Source: a virus. Taken from it: DNA of 39,536 nt. Shown here piece by piece: positions 8,015 to 33,781 of this stretch. The translations under genes were made by a program, and so were the position numbers. The notes below the pieces were generated by a model. The model was not told the origin of the DNA, made no database searches, and saw only the letters and a program-made list of their open reading frames with translations. Each line of letters starts with the position of its first letter. The stretch's first letter is position 1. Location: the IMG/VR virus record IMGVR_UViG_3300013115_000236, positions 1 through 39,536 of that record; one strand, 5' to 3'.

Positions 8015-8143
8015 GTAATGAGAAATATGAATAACATATCAAAACGATTTCCACCGGTACTCACCGTAGAGATTCCTCGGGCATATAATTGCACAACGGA
8101 ACATCAAGGTAGTGCCGATTATTGGAAAACGTAGCCTCATTAC
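8015..8143 (+). ncRNA. Structured non-coding RNA, unknown family
   Basis: GTAATGAG (8015-8022) pairs perfectly with CTCATTAC (8136-8143). Inside, ACGATTTCCA (8044-8053) pairs with TGGAAAACGT (8123-8132) with one mismatch. CGGT-ACTC-ACCG (8055-8066) is a hairpin, and CGGGCA (8078-8083) can pair TGCCG (8113-8117) around a second GCAC/GTGC option. There is no ORF of useful length. A promoter starts exactly at its 5' end and a terminator lies at 8177. It resembles no family I know. Confidence 0.7.
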
Positions 8144-8176
8144 TTTTAGTATATAATTTTACATGACATATAGAGA

Positions 8177-8210
8177 AAAGGGTGAGACTAACAAGTTTCA
8201 CCCTTTTTTT
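8177..8210 (+). terminator. Rho-independent terminator
   Basis: AAAGGGTGA and TCACCCTTT form a perfect 9-bp stem with a T run. It ends the structured RNA unit and isolates the tRNA array, which has its own promoter. Confidence 0.85.
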
Positions 8211-8347: not shown

Positions 8348-8433
8348 GTAACTGTGACCGAGTGGCCGATGGTAACGGGCTGTTAACCCGTCGGATGAAA
8401 ATCCCGTCGTAGGTTCGAATCCTACCGGTTACG
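8348..8433 (+). tRNA. tRNA-Asn(GTT) with long variable arm
   Basis: Acceptor GTAACTG/CGGTTAC. Anticodon arm ACGGG-CTGTTAA-CCCGT reads GTT. A 17-nt variable region contains the hairpin GGAT-GAAA-ATCC, as in class II (Ser/Leu/Tyr) tRNAs. The D arm (ACC-GAGTGGCCGAT-GGT) and the variable arm closely resemble tRNA-Ser(GCT) at 11838, so this looks like a serine tRNA body with one anticodon base changed. Confidence 0.8.
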
Positions 8434-8439
8434 CAACAT

Positions 8440-8516
8440 AACCGCTCATGTTCCAAGGATAATGGCGACGGAGCCTCCAAAACTCTGTGTGGTAAGTTCG
8501 ATTCTTACAGCGGTTG
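8440..8516 (+). tRNA. tRNA-Trp(CCA)
   Basis: Acceptor AACCGCT/AGCGGTT, loop CTCCAAA typical of tRNA-Trp, T arm GTAAG-TTCGATT-CTTAC, discriminator G. The D stem is weak and one anticodon-stem pair is C-A. Confidence 0.8.
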
Positions 8517-9312: not shown

Positions 9313-9398
9313 GCCGTGGTCGCATAGTTGGTCGATTGCACCGGTCTTGTAAACCGGAGGATTAATTTCCCACGTTGGTTCAAATCCAACTCACGGCT
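9313..9398 (+). tRNA. tRNA-Thr(TGT) with long variable arm
   Basis: Acceptor GCCGTGG/TCACGGC, anticodon arm CCGGT-CTTGTAA-ACCGG, T arm GTTGG-TTCAAAT-CCAAC. The variable region is 16 nt with a GGA/TCC helix, where 4-5 nt are expected for Thr. The D stem GCA/TGC equals that of tRNA-Ser(GCT). Discriminator T. Confidence 0.82.
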
Positions 9399-10018: not shown

Positions 10019-10023
10019 CAATA

Positions 10024-10096
10024 CCAGCGGTGACCAAGGCTTAGGCAACTGTGTGTTGGATACATGGTTTGGTTGGTTCGATTCCAACCCGTTGGA
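10024..10096 (+). tRNA. tRNA-Pro(TGG)
   Basis: Acceptor CCAGCGG/CCGTTGG. The anticodon arm is best read TGTGT-GTTGGAT-ACATG (anticodon TGG), with two G-U pairs. T arm GTTGG-TTCGATT-CCAAC. An alternative register would read GGA, but the stem pairs worse and no serine-type variable arm is present. Confidence 0.75.
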
Positions 10097-10103
10097 CAAA
10101 AAT

Positions 10104-10294
10104 AACATTCGACCTATCGCTCTACGGAGAGGAAGCTCGGGACTCCACTGCTAAATGTGGGAGACTTAATCGTCGTTAATACCACAGAGGGAGCAATTCA
10201 AATAGACATAGAAGGAATGCAGTTCAATGATTGTCGGGTAGATGCCGAAAGATAAATGATAGGGTTGAAACAGAATCCCGGCTATGAAATGTTG
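10104..10294 (+). ncRNA. rnpB: Minimal RNase P RNA
   Basis: A catalytic-core-only RNase P RNA of about 190 nt. GAGAGGAAGCTCGGGACTCC (10127-10146) matches bacterial conserved region I (GGAGGAAAGTCCGGGCTCC in E. coli). AGATAAATGA (10250-10259) and ACAGAATCCCGGCTA (10270-10284) match the 3' conserved parts (AGATGAATGA, ACAGAACCCGGCTTA). Helix P4 pairs AGC-T-CGGGA with TCCCGGCT, keeps the universal bulged U (10137), and four pairs differ from E. coli compensatorily. P1 is AACATT/AATGTT, P2 CCTATC/GATAGG, P3 only CTC-TACG-GAG, P5 CTCC/GGAG. The specificity domain shrinks to about 45 nt (TGTGG/CCACA). It sits 7 nt after tRNA-Pro and 6 nt before a tRNA-Met-like gene, so it is probably cotranscribed with its substrates. 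Confidence 0.9.
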
Positions 10295-10300
10295 TTTATT

Positions 10301-10369
10301 GGCAATGAACAAGGTGTAAGACAGAGCTCATATCTCTGATTCTAATAGGTTCAAGTCCTATCATTGCCA
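10301..10369 (+). tRNA. tRNA(CAT), Met/Ile2 type, reduced D arm
   Basis: Acceptor GGCAATG/CATTGCC, anticodon arm CAGAG-CTCATAT-CTCTG, T arm ATAGG-TTCAAGT-CCTAT. Only 14 nt lie between acceptor and anticodon stem, against about 19 normally, so the D arm is short or missing. With CAT it could be elongator Met or a lysidine-modified Ile tRNA. Confidence 0.75.
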
Positions 10370-10371
10370 CT

Positions 10372-10441
10372 CGCGGGGAAAGGAAGTCCTAACGGAGTCT
10401 CATAAGCTATCGTTGTGGTGGAGCATTACCACCCCCCGCTA
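10372..10441 (+). tRNA. Initiator-tRNA-like RNA (CAT), degenerate
   Basis: CGCGGGG pairs with CCCCGC but leaves C1 against T72, the mismatch that marks bacterial initiator tRNA. The anticodon loop is CTCATAA, identical to E. coli tRNA-fMet. However the anticodon stem has a mismatch and lacks the three G-C pairs of initiators, the D region is short, and the T-like hairpin GGTGG-AGCATTA-CCACC lacks TTCRA. It may be a decayed initiator tRNA or a tRNA-like decoy. Confidence 0.5.
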
Positions 10442-10448
10442 CTAAAAT

Positions 10449-10522
10449 GCCCGAGTGATGGAACTGGTATACATACTGGTTTTAGAAACCAGGTTTTGGG
10501 AGTTCGATTCTCCCCTCGGGTA
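10449..10522 (+). tRNA. tRNA-Leu(TAG)
   Basis: Acceptor GCCCGAG/CTCGGGT, leucine-type D arm, anticodon arm CTGGT-TTTAGAA-ACCAG. The variable arm is shorter than in tRNA-Leu(TAA). Confidence 0.85.
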
Positions 10523-10524
10523 CT

Positions 10525-10598
10525 GTAACCGTGGTGTAAAGTGGTGAGCATTGTTGGCTGTGACCCAACAGGTGGGGATTCGACTTCCCCCGGTTACC
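10525..10598 (+). tRNA. tRNA-His(GTG)
   Basis: Acceptor GTAACCG/CGGTTAC, anticodon arm TGTTGG-CTGTGAC-CCAACA, discriminator C as in His tRNAs. The -1 base is T, not the usual G, so the His identity G-1 is not encoded at the standard place. Confidence 0.85.
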
Positions 10599-10603
10599 CA
10601 AAT

Positions 10604-11468: not shown

Positions 11469-11859
11469 AGTTTGGACTAATGGGTGTTTCGATATTATAC
11501 ATCGTGGACATATAGAATTATTTAAGTATGCCAAATCACTTGGTGATGAACTTATAGTTGGTGTAGATACTGATGAGAAAGTTCAAAAAGATAAAGGTGG
11601 TGGTAGACCAATAAATACATTAGACGATAGAATAGAAATGTTGAACTCTATTAAGTATATTGATAAAGTCATACAGTTCAATACAACTAATGAATTACGA
11701 GATTTGGTTAGAGTTACATTGCCAGATATAATGGTAGTTGGTTCGGATTGGAAACATGGACAAGTAATTGGTAGAGAATTTACAAAGGAATTAAAATTTT
11801 TTGATAGGGTAGGTGATTATTCAACTACTAAAATTTTGGAGAGTTGGCAGAGTGGCTAA
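11461..11859 (+). CDS. Cytidylyltransferase-family nucleotidyltransferase
   Basis: 132 aa from a GTG start. The nucleotidyltransferase signature is clear: GCFDIIHRGHIELF holds the HxGH motif, DTDEKVQKDKGGGRPIN follows, and the C-terminal ISSTT-type motif appears as YSTTKI. The size fits the RfaE C-domain/TagD group, which joins CMP or AMP to a sugar or polyol phosphate. The substrate cannot be told. It overlaps the cupin gene, and its last seven codons lie inside tRNA-Ser(GCT). Confidence 0.85.
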   Translation: MIKVWTNGCFDIIHRGHIELFKYAKSLGDELIVGVDTDEKVQKDKGGGRPINTLDDRIEMLNSIKYIDKVIQFNTTNELRDLVRVTLPDIMVVGSDWKHGQVIGREFTKELKFFDRVGDYSTTKILESWQSG

Positions 11860-11923
11860 ATGCAACGGTTTGCTAAATCGTCGAGGTGAAAATCTCACAT
11901 AGGTTCAAATCCTATACTCTCCG
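11838..11923 (+). tRNA. tRNA-Ser(GCT)
   Basis: Acceptor GGAGAGT/ACTCTCC, D arm GCA-GAGTGGCTAAA-TGC, anticodon arm ACGGT-TTGCTAA-ATCGT, long variable arm with GAG...CTC. Its first 22 bases overlap the end of the preceding CDS, so mRNA and tRNA maturation compete. Confidence 0.9.
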
Positions 11924-13617: not shown

Positions 13618-13884
13618 ATGAAAGAAATACAAAAGAATAGTAAAGAAGTAATTCGTATTGGAGAAAGTGAATACGAAGGTCATAAGTTCGTAGATTGTAG
13701 AATATATTATGATGACAATGGAGAATGGCGACCTACCAAGAAAGGTATATCATTTAGTCATAAGATAGCTCATGAAGTTGTAGAAGCTATTATAGAGACT
13801 ATGGAAGAATCTAATTGGAAAGATTTTGAAACTACACCTGGTCAAATAAAAGGTCAGAGTGGGGGATCATTATATGGAAAATAG
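13618..13884 (+). CDS. PC4-like single-strand DNA-binding protein
   Basis: 88 aa. EYEGHKFVDCRIYYDDNGEW, then RPTKKGISFSHKIAHEVVEAI, matches the PC4/Sub1 coactivator domain: beta strands with an aromatic pair, the KKGI turn and a C-terminal helix. Such domains bind single-stranded DNA as dimers, so a role in phage replication or transcription is likely. It follows phoH directly and its last codons overlap the radical SAM gene. Confidence 0.75.
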   Translation: MKEIQKNSKEVIRIGESEYEGHKFVDCRIYYDDNGEWRPTKKGISFSHKIAHEVVEAIIETMEESNWKDFETTPGQIKGQSGGSLYGK

Positions 13885-14911
13885 TCTATATACACTTTAT
13901 GCCCACGAATTTAAAGATGGGAATATATCGCCACGTATTCTACCGCCTTGTTTAGAAATAGATTTAACAAATTCTTGTAATCAAGATTGTATCTATTGTT
14001 GTTCAGCAGAACATAGAAAATCAAATCCATCAAAAGCAAAATATGAAGATTTTATTAAATTGTTAGATAATCTTACCGAGTGGAATTTAAATAATTCTGT
14101 GGGTAAATTAACTTCTATTATTTTTGTTGGTGGGGGTGAACCTACCCTATTTAAAAATTACGAATATATTATTAAACATAGTATTGATTTGGGTTTTAAT
14201 ACTTCAATTGTTACAAATGGAACAAAGTTAGATAAACTCTTAAATATCGGTCCCGAATATATAAAAAAAATGCAATGGATTGGAGTTGATTTAGATAGTG
14301 CGATAGAAGATTTATACAATCTCGTCAGACTTCCAAAAGGTCCTGGACAATTTGATCAAGTCAAAGAAAACATTCAGAAAATAACAAAGATTGGTGGGAA
14401 AGTAGATATCAAAGCACTGATACTTGGAGAAACCGCAAATAAAACAAATATCTTGAATCTTTTTGAATATACAAAAGAAGTAAACGCAAGAATGATTTAT
14501 ATAAGGTCGGCTGTATTAGAAAAAGGTGATGGTGATGCTTATATCATTGAACAGGATTTAATGAACTATATTCTCAAGATAAAAGACATATATAACTTCA
14601 AAGTCAGAGTAAACCAAAGAGAACAAATAACTGCAAGATGTTATAAAAAATGTTATGCTCTGTATTTATTACCAATATTTTGTGCAGATGGGTTAATTTA
14701 TCTATGTCCAGAACATAGAGGAAATAAAAATTTAACCATTGGTAGTTGGATAGAAGATGACTGGAGAAGTATATGGTGCGGTGATGTTCATAATGATAAA
14801 TTTAATAACTTTGATATATCTATTTGTTCACCATGTAGACCAGACCCATACAATACTGGTATTCAACAAGTATTAAATAATCCAGATAGATTTGAGGAGC
14901 TATTCTTTTAA
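13874..14911 (+). CDS. Radical SAM enzyme with SPASM-like C-terminus
   Basis: 345 aa. CNQDCIYC (Cys 35, 39, 42) is the CxxxCxxC cluster that binds the SAM-cleaving 4Fe-4S. GGGEPTLF and the VTNGT strand follow as in the radical SAM barrel. The C-terminal part has many cysteines (CYKKC, CPEHR, CSPC) that could bind further clusters, as in SPASM proteins. Substrate unknown. Start at ATG 13874 with GGGGGA upstream; an in-frame GTG at 13859 is weaker. It overlaps the PC4-like gene by 11 nt. Confidence 0.88.
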   Translation: MENSLYTLYAHEFKDGNISPRILPPCLEIDLTNSCNQDCIYCCSAEHRKSNPSKAKYEDFIKLLDNLTEWNLNNSVGKLTSIIFVGGGEPTLFKNYEYIIKHSIDLGFNTSIVTNGTKLDKLLNIGPEYIKKMQWIGVDLDSAIEDLYNLVRLPKGPGQFDQVKENIQKITKIGGKVDIKALILGETANKTNILNLFEYTKEVNARMIYIRSAVLEKGDGDAYIIEQDLMNYILKIKDIYNFKVRVNQREQITARCYKKCYALYLLPIFCADGLIYLCPEHRGNKNLTIGSWIEDDWRSIWCGDVHNDKFNNFDISICSPCRPDPYNTGIQQVLNNPDRFEELFF

Positions 14912-24741: not shown

Positions 24742-25364
24742 ATAGGAACCTAATATTAGAAGCAAGTTTATCTCGTATTTACAGAGACTTTCAAGATAAT
24801 GAATTTGGTATTATTACATCTTGGAGAGTTGGTAATACAGATAATAAGGCAAATCTATCTAAATTAAAAAGTGCCGTAAGAAGTGCTGGTTTTGGATATG
24901 TTAGAATAGATGGTGTTGGTCAGGAAGAAGATGAAACGGGTAAAGTTAAATCTGTAAAAGAACCATCTTTATTGGTTAAGAATGTGAAGGTTGGTGGAGA
25001 TACTGTAATGAGTTCAAATAAGTTTGAAAACTTTATGGTTAAGTTGGCACATAAATATAAACAATGGGGTATTGTATTACACAATCCAGATAAGGGCACA
25101 AGATTAATTCAAACAAGTGATGATGGTAAACCAATTAGAAAGATTGATTCTAAAATGAGTAAGTTTAATCCAATGAAAACGGGTCAATTCTTTTCAAGTC
25201 TTAAAGGAAAATCATTTAAGTTTGAAGGTTTTAAATATGCAGATAGACCACAAAATCATATTCACGGTATGTCTTTAGAAAATAAAGGTGAGGTTGATAT
25301 TTACAAACGAGAATCTACTGAAAAGTGGATGAAAGAGATAATGAGAATTATTGATGAAAAATAA
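24738..25364 (+). CDS. Paralogue family protein 2
   Basis: 208 aa. ATGA overlap with the preceding gene favours 24738 over the in-frame ATG at 24723. LEASLSRIYRDFQDNEFGIITSWR, then LKSAVRSAGFGYVRIDGVGQ and VKEPSLLVKNV, align with the family pattern of its neighbours. Function unknown. Confidence 0.72.
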   Translation: MNRNLILEASLSRIYRDFQDNEFGIITSWRVGNTDNKANLSKLKSAVRSAGFGYVRIDGVGQEEDETGKVKSVKEPSLLVKNVKVGGDTVMSSNKFENFMVKLAHKYKQWGIVLHNPDKGTRLIQTSDDGKPIRKIDSKMSKFNPMKTGQFFSSLKGKSFKFEGFKYADRPQNHIHGMSLENKGEVDIYKRESTEKWMKEIMRIIDEK

Positions 25365-26055
25365 AAATCACTATCGGTCAGAATATAAAAAGTGGATGAA
25401 TATATCTGAAGGAATTGCCTTGGACGAGAGTTCGTTAAGTAGAATTTGGAAACATTCTCAAAATCATCAAACAGGAACTATAACAGCATTTAGATATGCA
25501 CGGGATTGTGGAAGGGGTAAAGTCTACACTAAAGGTGAGAATAAGGCAAGAAATAAAAATTTACAAGCAAAATTGTTAAGTGCTGGATATGGTATAACTA
25601 AAATACAGGGTATTTATATTGAGAATTATAAATCAAGTGATGAACGTGAAGTTAAAGAAGAATCGTTCTTTGTAGTTGATTTAAAAGATAAAGGAAAATT
25701 ATTATCTGATTTAAAAAAATTAGGAAATGAATTTGACCAAGATAGTATTTGTTTTGGATTGAAAGGTGGTAGACGATATACTTTATTTGGTACTAATGAT
25801 TGTTCAAATGCATATCCAGGTAAAGGTAAGAAAGTAAAAGTTGGAGATGCAATCTTTGGTAAAAATGGTGAATTTATGTCAAGAGTAAATGGTAGACCAT
25901 TTATATTTGCAGGAAGTGTTAAAACTAAATTACCGGAAATGATAACTTTTGATTCAATGAGTATAAATTCAAAACATGCTGTAGCAGTTGAATCACATGA
26001 AAATTGGGAATCGTTTTATATACAAAATAAAGAAAATTTAGAAAATGAAAAATAA
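25354..26055 (+). CDS. Paralogue family protein 3
   Basis: 233 aa, the best-preserved member: DESSLSRIWKHSQNHQTGTITAFRYARDCG, SAGYGITKIQGIYIENY, EESFFVVDL and FDQDSICFGLKGGRRYTLFGTND. I believe proteins like this occur in other phages, but I cannot name a family. It overlaps the previous gene by 11 nt. Confidence 0.75.
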   Translation: MKNKNHYRSEYKKWMNISEGIALDESSLSRIWKHSQNHQTGTITAFRYARDCGRGKVYTKGENKARNKNLQAKLLSAGYGITKIQGIYIENYKSSDEREVKEESFFVVDLKDKGKLLSDLKKLGNEFDQDSICFGLKGGRRYTLFGTNDCSNAYPGKGKKVKVGDAIFGKNGEFMSRVNGRPFIFAGSVKTKLPEMITFDSMSINSKHAVAVESHENWESFYIQNKENLENEK

Positions 26056-32146: not shown

Positions 32147-33781
32147 ATGGCTAAAGAAATAAAGTATAACTCACAATCCCACTCAGCTTTGATGTCTGGT
32201 GTAGACCAACTCGCGAACGCAGTTAAGGTTACATTAGGTCCAAAGGGTAGGAATGTAGTTATTGAAAAGAAGTTCGGTTCACCACTTATCACCAAAGATG
32301 GTGTTACGGTGGCAAAGGAAGTCGAACTTGAAGATAGATTTGAAAGTGTAGGAGCAGAACTTGTTAAGGAAGTTGCTTCCAAGACATCTGATATTGCAGG
32401 TGATGGAACAACTACAGCTACAGTTCTTGCACAGTCAATTATTAATGAAGGCATTAAGAATGTTACAGCTGGTGCAAATCCAATGTCTATTAAACGAGGT
32501 ATTGATTATGCAGCAGGTAAAGTTGTAGAGTTCATTAAAGAATCATCTAAAGACCTTCCTGATAGTTCTCAAATTGCTCAAGTAGCAACCATATCAGCAA
32601 ATGATGATAGTGAGATTGGTGGAAAGATTGCAGAAGCAATGGAGAAGGTTGGTAAGGACGGAGTTATTACAGTAGAAGAAAGTAAAACCGCTGAAACATA
32701 TTTGGATTTCGTAGAAGGAATGCAATTTGACCGTGGCTATCTTTCACCTTACTTCGTAACTGATTCTGATAATATGGAAGCGGTTCTTGAAGATCCATAT
32801 ATCTTACTACATGACAAGAAAATTTCCAATGTGAAAGACGTTCTTCCAATTTTGGAGAAGGTAGTTCAAACAGGGAAACCAATCGTCATAGTAGCAGAAG
32901 ATGTAGATGGTGAAGCACTGGCAGCTCTCGTGGTAAATAAACTTCGTGGAACTTTTAAAGTTCTTGCAGTGAAGGCACCAGGATTCGGAGATAGACGGAA
33001 AGCTATGTTAGAAGATATAGCATCACTAACAGGAGCAACTGTAATTTCTGAAGAAGCGGGTTACAAATTAGAGAACACAACACTTGATTATCTTGGAACT
33101 TGTTCTCGTGTAGTATCTGATAAAGACAATACAACCGTAGTTGGTGGTAGTGGTGATGTAGATACAATCAAATCTCGTATTAATGAAATCAAAGTTCAGG
33201 TTGAAAAATCTACTTCTGATTATGATATAGAGAAACTACAAGAACGACTTGCCAAATTAAGTGGTGGAGTTGCAGTATTGAATGTTGGAGCACCAACTGA
33301 AACTGAAATGAAAGAGAAGAAAGCTCGTGTGGAAGATGCGTTACACGCAACAAGAGCAGCAGTTGAAGAAGGGATTGTCGCCGGTGGTGGTGTTACTTTA
33401 CTTCGTGCTATTTCAGCTCTTGATGATGTTTCACTTGATGATGAACAAATGGTTGGAGTGAATATCATGAGAAAAGCACTTCAATCACCACTTCGTCAAA
33501 TCTGTGAAAATGCTGGTGAAGAATCTTCCGTCGTAGCACGTGAAGTTCTAAACAGTACGAATGGAACTGGATTTGATGCTCGTAATGGTGAATATGTAGA
33601 TATGTTCACTGCTGGAATTATTGACCCAGCTAAGGTTACTCGTGTAGCAGTAGAGAACGCAAGTTCAATCGCTGGTATGTTGTTGACTACTGAAGCAGTC
33701 ATTACTGAAATTCCAAGCGAAGATTCAGCACCTATGATGTCACCAGGTGGTATGGGTGGTGGAATGCCAGGGATGATGTAA
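32147..33781 (+). CDS. groEL: Chaperonin GroEL
   Basis: 544 aa, full length with all functional parts: [32 protein letters not shown] (nucleotide-binding DGTTT), GGGVTLLRA and the C-terminal [11 protein letters not shown] tail. No truncation or frameshift. A phage with its own complete GroEL, GroES and Hsp20 likely folds its own late proteins. TAGGAGAAATGAA precedes the ATG. Confidence 0.98.

Follow-up and report, generated by a model that had tools for sequence, protein, structure and literature searches.

A long-armed tRNA-Asn in a viral tRNA array

The window, that is, the whole stretch of DNA analysed here, is a virus record of the IMG/VR type with 39,536 bases, and it carries a large array of tRNA genes (Table 1). 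ARAGORN called 21 tRNA genes in this array, Rfam added a Met gene at 10301-10369, and genes for Trp(CCA) (~8440-8515), Pro(TGG) (~10023-10097) and initiator Met (~10373-10443) were added by eye; because Met, Trp, Pro and initiator Met join the ARAGORN set, the array serves all 20 amino acids. Its sole reader of AAY codons is a tRNA-Asn(GTT), which was called by both ARAGORN and Rfam RF00005 (54.5 bits, against a gathering score of 29), and whose true ends enclose a complete cloverleaf. A relative of the window, L077, has the same gene order and a PhoH that is 90% identical.

Table 1 Features of the window and the basis of each assignment
Feature	Position	Strand	Basis
Hairpin RNA, just upstream of the tRNA array	8016..8140		strongly folded (z -5.5)
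Terminator-like site accompanying the hairpin	8173..8210
tRNA array, about 25 genes, all 20 amino acids	8269..12206	+	ARAGORN (21 genes), Rfam, eye
Class II (long variable arm) tRNA-Asn(GTT)	8348..8433	+	ARAGORN, Rfam, dissection, covariation in relatives
Ser-like D arm of tRNA-Asn	8355..8374	+	regional profile scores
Anticodon GTT, reads AAC/AAU	8382..8384	+	dissection
17-nt variable arm, Tyr-like geometry	8392..8408	+	dissection, profile scores, covariation
Long-armed tRNA-Thr(TGT), discriminator U73	9313..9398	+	dissection; class I tRNA-Thr in same slot of relative L077
RNase P RNA-like gene, very small, inside the tRNA array	10100..10301		Rfam RF00010, E 1e-11, 44 bits, below the gathering score of 100
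tRNA-Leu(TAG), short 5-nt variable region (opposite swap)	10449..10522	+	dissection; same form in phages 4MG, GAP31, Av-05
tRNA-His	10525..10599
Ordinary tRNA-Ser(GCT), comparator: G1-C72, G2-C71, 5-bp arm, 2-nt linker	11838..11923	+	ARAGORN, dissection
Radical SAM protein	13859..14911		match to prokaryotic viperin (pVip) models, E 1.5e-22
Protein matching the S-adenosylmethionine lyase family	25351..26055
Phage GroEL	32147..33781		closest solved chain, an ancestral FCB-group chaperonin

The acceptor stem of the tRNA-Asn (GTAACTG/CGGTTAC) forms 7 of 7 base pairs, the D arm reads TGACCGAGTGGCCGATGGTA, the anticodon stem (5/5) carries the loop CTGTTAA with U33 and A37, and a fully paired T arm (5/5) and the discriminator G73 complete the molecule. 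The variable region, CGGATGAAAATCCCGTC, consists of 1 nt, a 4-bp helix (GGAT/ATCC) with a GAAA loop, and a 4-nt 3' linker. RNAfold, run unaided, placed this hairpin in the minimum-energy structure. Furthermore, with the pairs fixed beforehand, the helix covaried among further class II tRNA-Asn genes with matching lengths, in which 75/87 and 90/108 cells were paired and 0 of 2000 shuffles scored as high. The variable helix of class II tRNA-Asn is real and maintained by covariation, and the earlier note's description of a GTT anticodon combined with a 17-nt variable region bearing its own helix was confirmed by ARAGORN, Rfam, RNAfold and covariation alike.

A long variable arm is normally restricted to the Ser, Leu, Tyr and Sec tRNAs, according to reviews. 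Chance or misfolding as the source of the long arm was ruled out by the covariation together with the at least 127 distinct genes described below, and an intron in a class I tRNA was likewise ruled out, since in most class II genes a helix capped by GNRA-type loops lies at fixed positions. An identity as tRNA-Sec or allo-tRNA, which needs an acceptor branch other than 7/5, was rejected on the 7 + 5 bp found here.

The mismatch of class and anticodon occurs three times in the array, in tRNA-Asn, tRNA-Thr(TGT) and tRNA-Leu(TAG); short-armed tRNA-Leu is common in phages, with 70 short against 82 long forms in the fetched phage loci. The class II tRNA-Asn and the tRNA-His of this array agree at 13/14 positions of the acceptor stem, a hint of gene conversion among the tRNA genes.

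Other features of the window include the RNase P RNA-like gene, which spans the whole RF00010 model in about 200 nt, with the core motifs GAGGAAgcUCgGGaCUCC, GGAGCAA..AAAUA, AGAUaAAUG and ACAGAAuCCCGGCU in order. An RNase P RNA gene in a phage would, to our knowledge, be out of the ordinary; no such gene was found in L077, nor by motif in the other fetched loci. The hairpin RNA upstream of the array is kept in L077 (about 1966-2110), and its shape is reminiscent of 6S RNA, with no match in Rfam.

A virus-restricted, mosaic kind of tRNA

We scanned IMG/VR with a pattern of a Ser-like D arm (GAGTGG), the loop CTGTTAA and a class II gap, which matched at least 65 stretches carrying at least 58 class II tRNA-Asn genes. 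With the D-arm motif dropped in a second pattern, the total came to at least 127 distinct genes, in 58 clusters at 80% identity among the matches listed. Both scans use exact patterns, and their totals are to be read as minimum numbers, not as frequencies. The second pattern gave the same picture, which rules out a bias from GAGTGG; the loop CTGTTAA, found in 57/57 distinct class II genes of the first set, is itself specified by the first pattern. The annotated phages phiKZ, PA1C, 4MG and GAP31 also carry a class II tRNA-Asn, as does Av-05 by a match in the phage collection; 4MG and Av-05 are phages of E. coli, and phiKZ has a class I tRNA-Asn besides; in the database records of these phages the class II gene is named tRNA-Asn or left unannotated.

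When the first pattern was run over 84,980 bacterial and archaeal genomes, 76 matches were obtained, only 3 of which were real class II tRNA-Asn genes, and all 3 sit on contigs that also encode phage-type proteins, for example DNA ligase, HNH endonucleases and members of PHROG families. As the remaining 73 were ordinary tRNA-Ser or chance matches, a cellular origin was rejected. With tRNA-Asp as a control anticodon, 8 class II genes were found among 74 matches. Class II tRNA-Asn is a widespread, virus-restricted kind and not a one-off; no prior report of it was found in the open-access literature.

We then scored the 127 listed genes region by region against profiles of Ser, Tyr, Leu, class I Asn and class I Lys tRNAs, built on ARAGORN calls. 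As a result, the acceptor fitted class I Asn best in 110/127 of these genes, the D arm fitted Ser best in 86/127, and the variable-arm geometry fitted Tyr best in 95/126, while the anticodon stem and T arm leaned towards Tyr, not decisively. G73 is present in 98% of the 127. Among the 58 clusters listed, U1-A72 occurs in 43, compared with 40/62 class I Asn and 0/73 Ser (Fisher 4e-22 versus Ser); G1-C72 together with G2-C71 occurs in 5, compared with 59/73 Ser (1e-17); and a 3' linker of at least 3 nt occurs in 38, compared with 7/73 Ser (1e-11) and 33/48 Tyr. As a family, these genes are mosaics: the acceptor end is of the Asn type, the D arm is of the Ser type, and the variable arm has Tyr geometry. 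The other phage class II tRNAs likewise keep the features of their class I forms, namely A73 in tRNA-Lys (83%), and C2-G71 (93%) and U73 (87%) in tRNA-Thr, and class II Lys and class II Asn have the variable-arm geometry in common.

The D arm of the window gene scored -15.2 bits with the Ser profile, -25.3 with Tyr and -30.8 with class I Asn, and its acceptor -32.0 with Tyr, -34.7 with class I Asn and -40.5 with Ser; the Leu profile fitted poorly in most regions. With G1-C72 and with U2-A71 in place of the Ser-conserved G2-C71, the acceptor is clearly non-Ser and not specifically Asn-like. The variable arm has 4 bp and a 4-nt 3' linker, against 5-7 bp in Ser and a 1-nt linker in 31/32 sampled bacterial tRNA-Ser. 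The close match of D arm and variable arm to the array's tRNA-Ser(GCT), as the earlier note had it, therefore holds in part: the D arm is Ser-type by profile, but only 13/20 of its positions are identical to those of that gene, and the variable arm has Tyr geometry. Without its acceptor stem and variable arm, the body of the window gene is 95% identical to the tRNA-Ser(GCT) of Pseudomonas phage PPSC2. The latter gene (2494-2581 of the fetched locus, L071) has an A1-U72 acceptor and is possibly a step between the Ser and Asn identities, as judged from sequence.

Compared with known tRNAs, class II tRNA-Asn shares with the bacterial and phage class I tRNA-Asn(GUU) the anticodon, the loop CTGTTAA, G73, the acceptor-end preferences and the array slot, and differs in the D arm and in a variable region of 11-20 nt with a helix instead of 4-5 nt; the short region is the usual form of tRNA-Asn, and not an identity determinant. 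With tRNA-Ser(GCU) it shares the type of D arm, the long variable region and G73, whereas the anticodon, the pairs 1-72 and 2-71 and the Ser arm of 5-7 bp, mostly with a 1-nt 3' linker, are different. Bacterial tRNA-Tyr(GUA) has the same arm geometry (1 nt, 3-4 bp, about 3-nt linker) and an anticodon that differs at base 36 only, but it has A73 and G1-C72 and a less similar D arm.

Charging and decoding

The slot before Trp-Gln, which holds the class II tRNA-Asn in the window, is occupied by a class I tRNA-Asn in L077, and the slot between Val and Arg(ACG) holds a class I tRNA-Thr in L077 and a class II one in the window; at the level of sequence, this is replacement by an equivalent gene. There are 461 AAY codons in 34 window ORFs, and in homolog columns from the fetched loci AAT is aligned with N in 49% and S in 7%, and AAC with N in 60% and S in 8%. 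In phage GroEL, 11/20 AAY sites are N and 0 are S in chain 9rwr_A. A reassignment of AAY to Ser was excluded by this conservation of Asn in the window ORFs and GroEL, which is compatible with a small percentage of Ser misincorporation. Similarity of GroEL suggests a host among the Bacteroidota, and AsnRS was found above the family cut-off in all three Bacteroidota genomes tested.

In bacteria, Asn identity is transplantable with the anticodon and G73, while SerRS recognizes its tRNA mainly by shape; most bacterial tRNA-Ser conserve G1-C72 and G2-C71, and two antideterminants are described in E. coli, C2-G71 of tRNA-Leu, acting against SerRS, and G73 of tRNA-Ser, acting against LeuRS and TyrRS (PMC9976931). 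In experiments cited there, small changes of the variable arm reportedly moved tRNAs into Ser acceptance (Himeno 1990, 1997). From these identity elements and the mosaic features, we infer a design that avoids SerRS and TyrRS and keeps AsnRS. The mosaic combination would keep the two former enzymes from charging the tRNA, and host AsnRS, recognizing the anticodon GUU and G73, would attach Asn to it; with slot replacement and codon conservation pointing the same way, it would then read AAC and AAU as Asn and be the phage's ordinary asparagine tRNA. We consider it probable that the gene encodes a real, virus-specific tRNA that is charged with Asn, a judgement that does not extend to any role in defence.

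The earlier note had proposed that this RNA might put Ser at Asn codons or need a special synthetase, and the proposal found no support, given U2-A71, the 4-bp arm with its 4-nt linker, the class I tRNA-Asn of L077 and the AAY codons aligned as Asn. In a serine missense tRNA, host SerRS would charge through the long arm and Ser would be placed at AAY codons. The Ser-like D arm, the long variable arm, a G73 common to Ser and Asn and the 95% identity of the body to the PPSC2 tRNA-Ser(GCT) are all in keeping with this. Some class II members also have Ser-type ends: the genes of the Vequintavirinae members 4MG and GAP31 combine G1-C72 and G2-C71 with G73, and therefore only the arm geometry argues against SerRS there. 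Across the family, however, both the acceptor ends and the geometry of the arm differ from those of Ser, the other class II swaps bear acceptor features of their own amino acid, a class I tRNA-Asn fills the slot in the relative, and the 461 AAY sites would be exposed and yet are conserved as Asn. Nematode nev-tRNAs, which the earlier note cited as a parallel, were misacylated in vitro with no detectable mistranslation in vivo (PMC4300185). The parallel is apt in that a class I anticodon sits on a class II body, but nev-tRNAs have Gly or Ile anticodons and are Leu-charged in vitro, whereas here the acceptor fits the amino acid of the anticodon, the Leu profile is poor and the gene is that of a virus and not of a nematode genome. 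Taken together, serine insertion appears very improbable.

Origin and possible role of the long arm

We surveyed arrays that hold five or more tRNAs, including a class II tRNA-Asn. Of 110 such arrays, 38 also contain a class I tRNA-Asn of identical anticodon, compared with a duplication of other anticodons in 95/1169 (8%; odds ratio 6, p = 3e-13), and about half of the class I/class II pairs lie within 30 nt, often 5-30 nt apart. The class II copy as a local duplicate of its class I neighbour was rejected, as the acceptor identity within a locus (0.35) equals that of random pairs (0.35). Co-retention with class I and the covariation of the variable helix therefore suggest that the class II copy does something that class I does not, and that its arm gives something that an ordinary tRNA-Asn lacks.

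Two explanations of the arm, both compatible with Asn charging, were weighed. Recombination within arrays may have fitted a class II body with the anticodon and acceptor of Asn, with AsnRS tolerating an arm that has no role. We give this neutral patchwork somewhat less than an even chance: the likeness of the acceptor stem to the tRNA-His of the array, the loss of the arm from many phage tRNA-Leu, and the varying D stems and lengths among class II tRNA-Asn all favour it, but the variable helix covaries at a fixed geometry, Asn and Lys class II tRNAs share one geometry, and class I and class II Asn are kept together far above the 8% seen for other anticodons. The same co-retention, often at 5-30 nt, is what would be seen if the long arm or a changed core hid this tRNA-Asn from a host nuclease or toxin that targets tRNAs, so that AAY decoding survives. 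The restriction of class II tRNA-Asn to viruses agrees with such a defence-resistant isoacceptor, and phage tRNAs with anticodon-loop mutations have been proposed to evade VapC (PMC10264068). The T5 tRNA-Tyr and the mycobacteriophage tRNAs that evade tRNA-targeting defence are likewise phage isoacceptors structurally unlike those of the host; in them the change lies in the loop of a normal class, whereas in class II tRNA-Asn the class itself changes and the resistance is only putative. Against defence resistance, no nuclease targeting tRNA-Asn through its core, and no tRNA-Asn-specific defence of any kind, was found in the open-access literature. We regard defence resistance as a tentative idea, though the foremost one for what the arm may provide, and the neutral patchwork as at least as likely. 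By the same tentative guess, the long arm would be kept since host factors see the tRNA differently, most likely the tRNA-cutting defences. It is still a little more doubtful that phages evolved a tRNA class of their own, comprising Asn, Lys and Thr tRNAs whose long arms share a Tyr-like form, charged normally and invisible to host tRNA-cutting immunity, in which the arm would be an anti-defence device; near-absence from cellular genomes was shown for Asn.

Standard annotation hides the class II genes under the plain label tRNA-Asn. They are easy to assay in E. coli and offer a ready chassis for orthogonal tRNAs, and the class II swaps constitute a natural test of which tRNA parts are read by synthetases, the ribosome and defence nucleases. 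Phages, including phiKZ and phages of E. coli, appear to have departed repeatedly from the long-arm rule in their Asn, Lys and Thr tRNAs, whose acceptor ends remain correct, and the extra arm may, if the defence reading is true, shield phage tRNA-Asn from the tRNA-cutting defences of bacteria.
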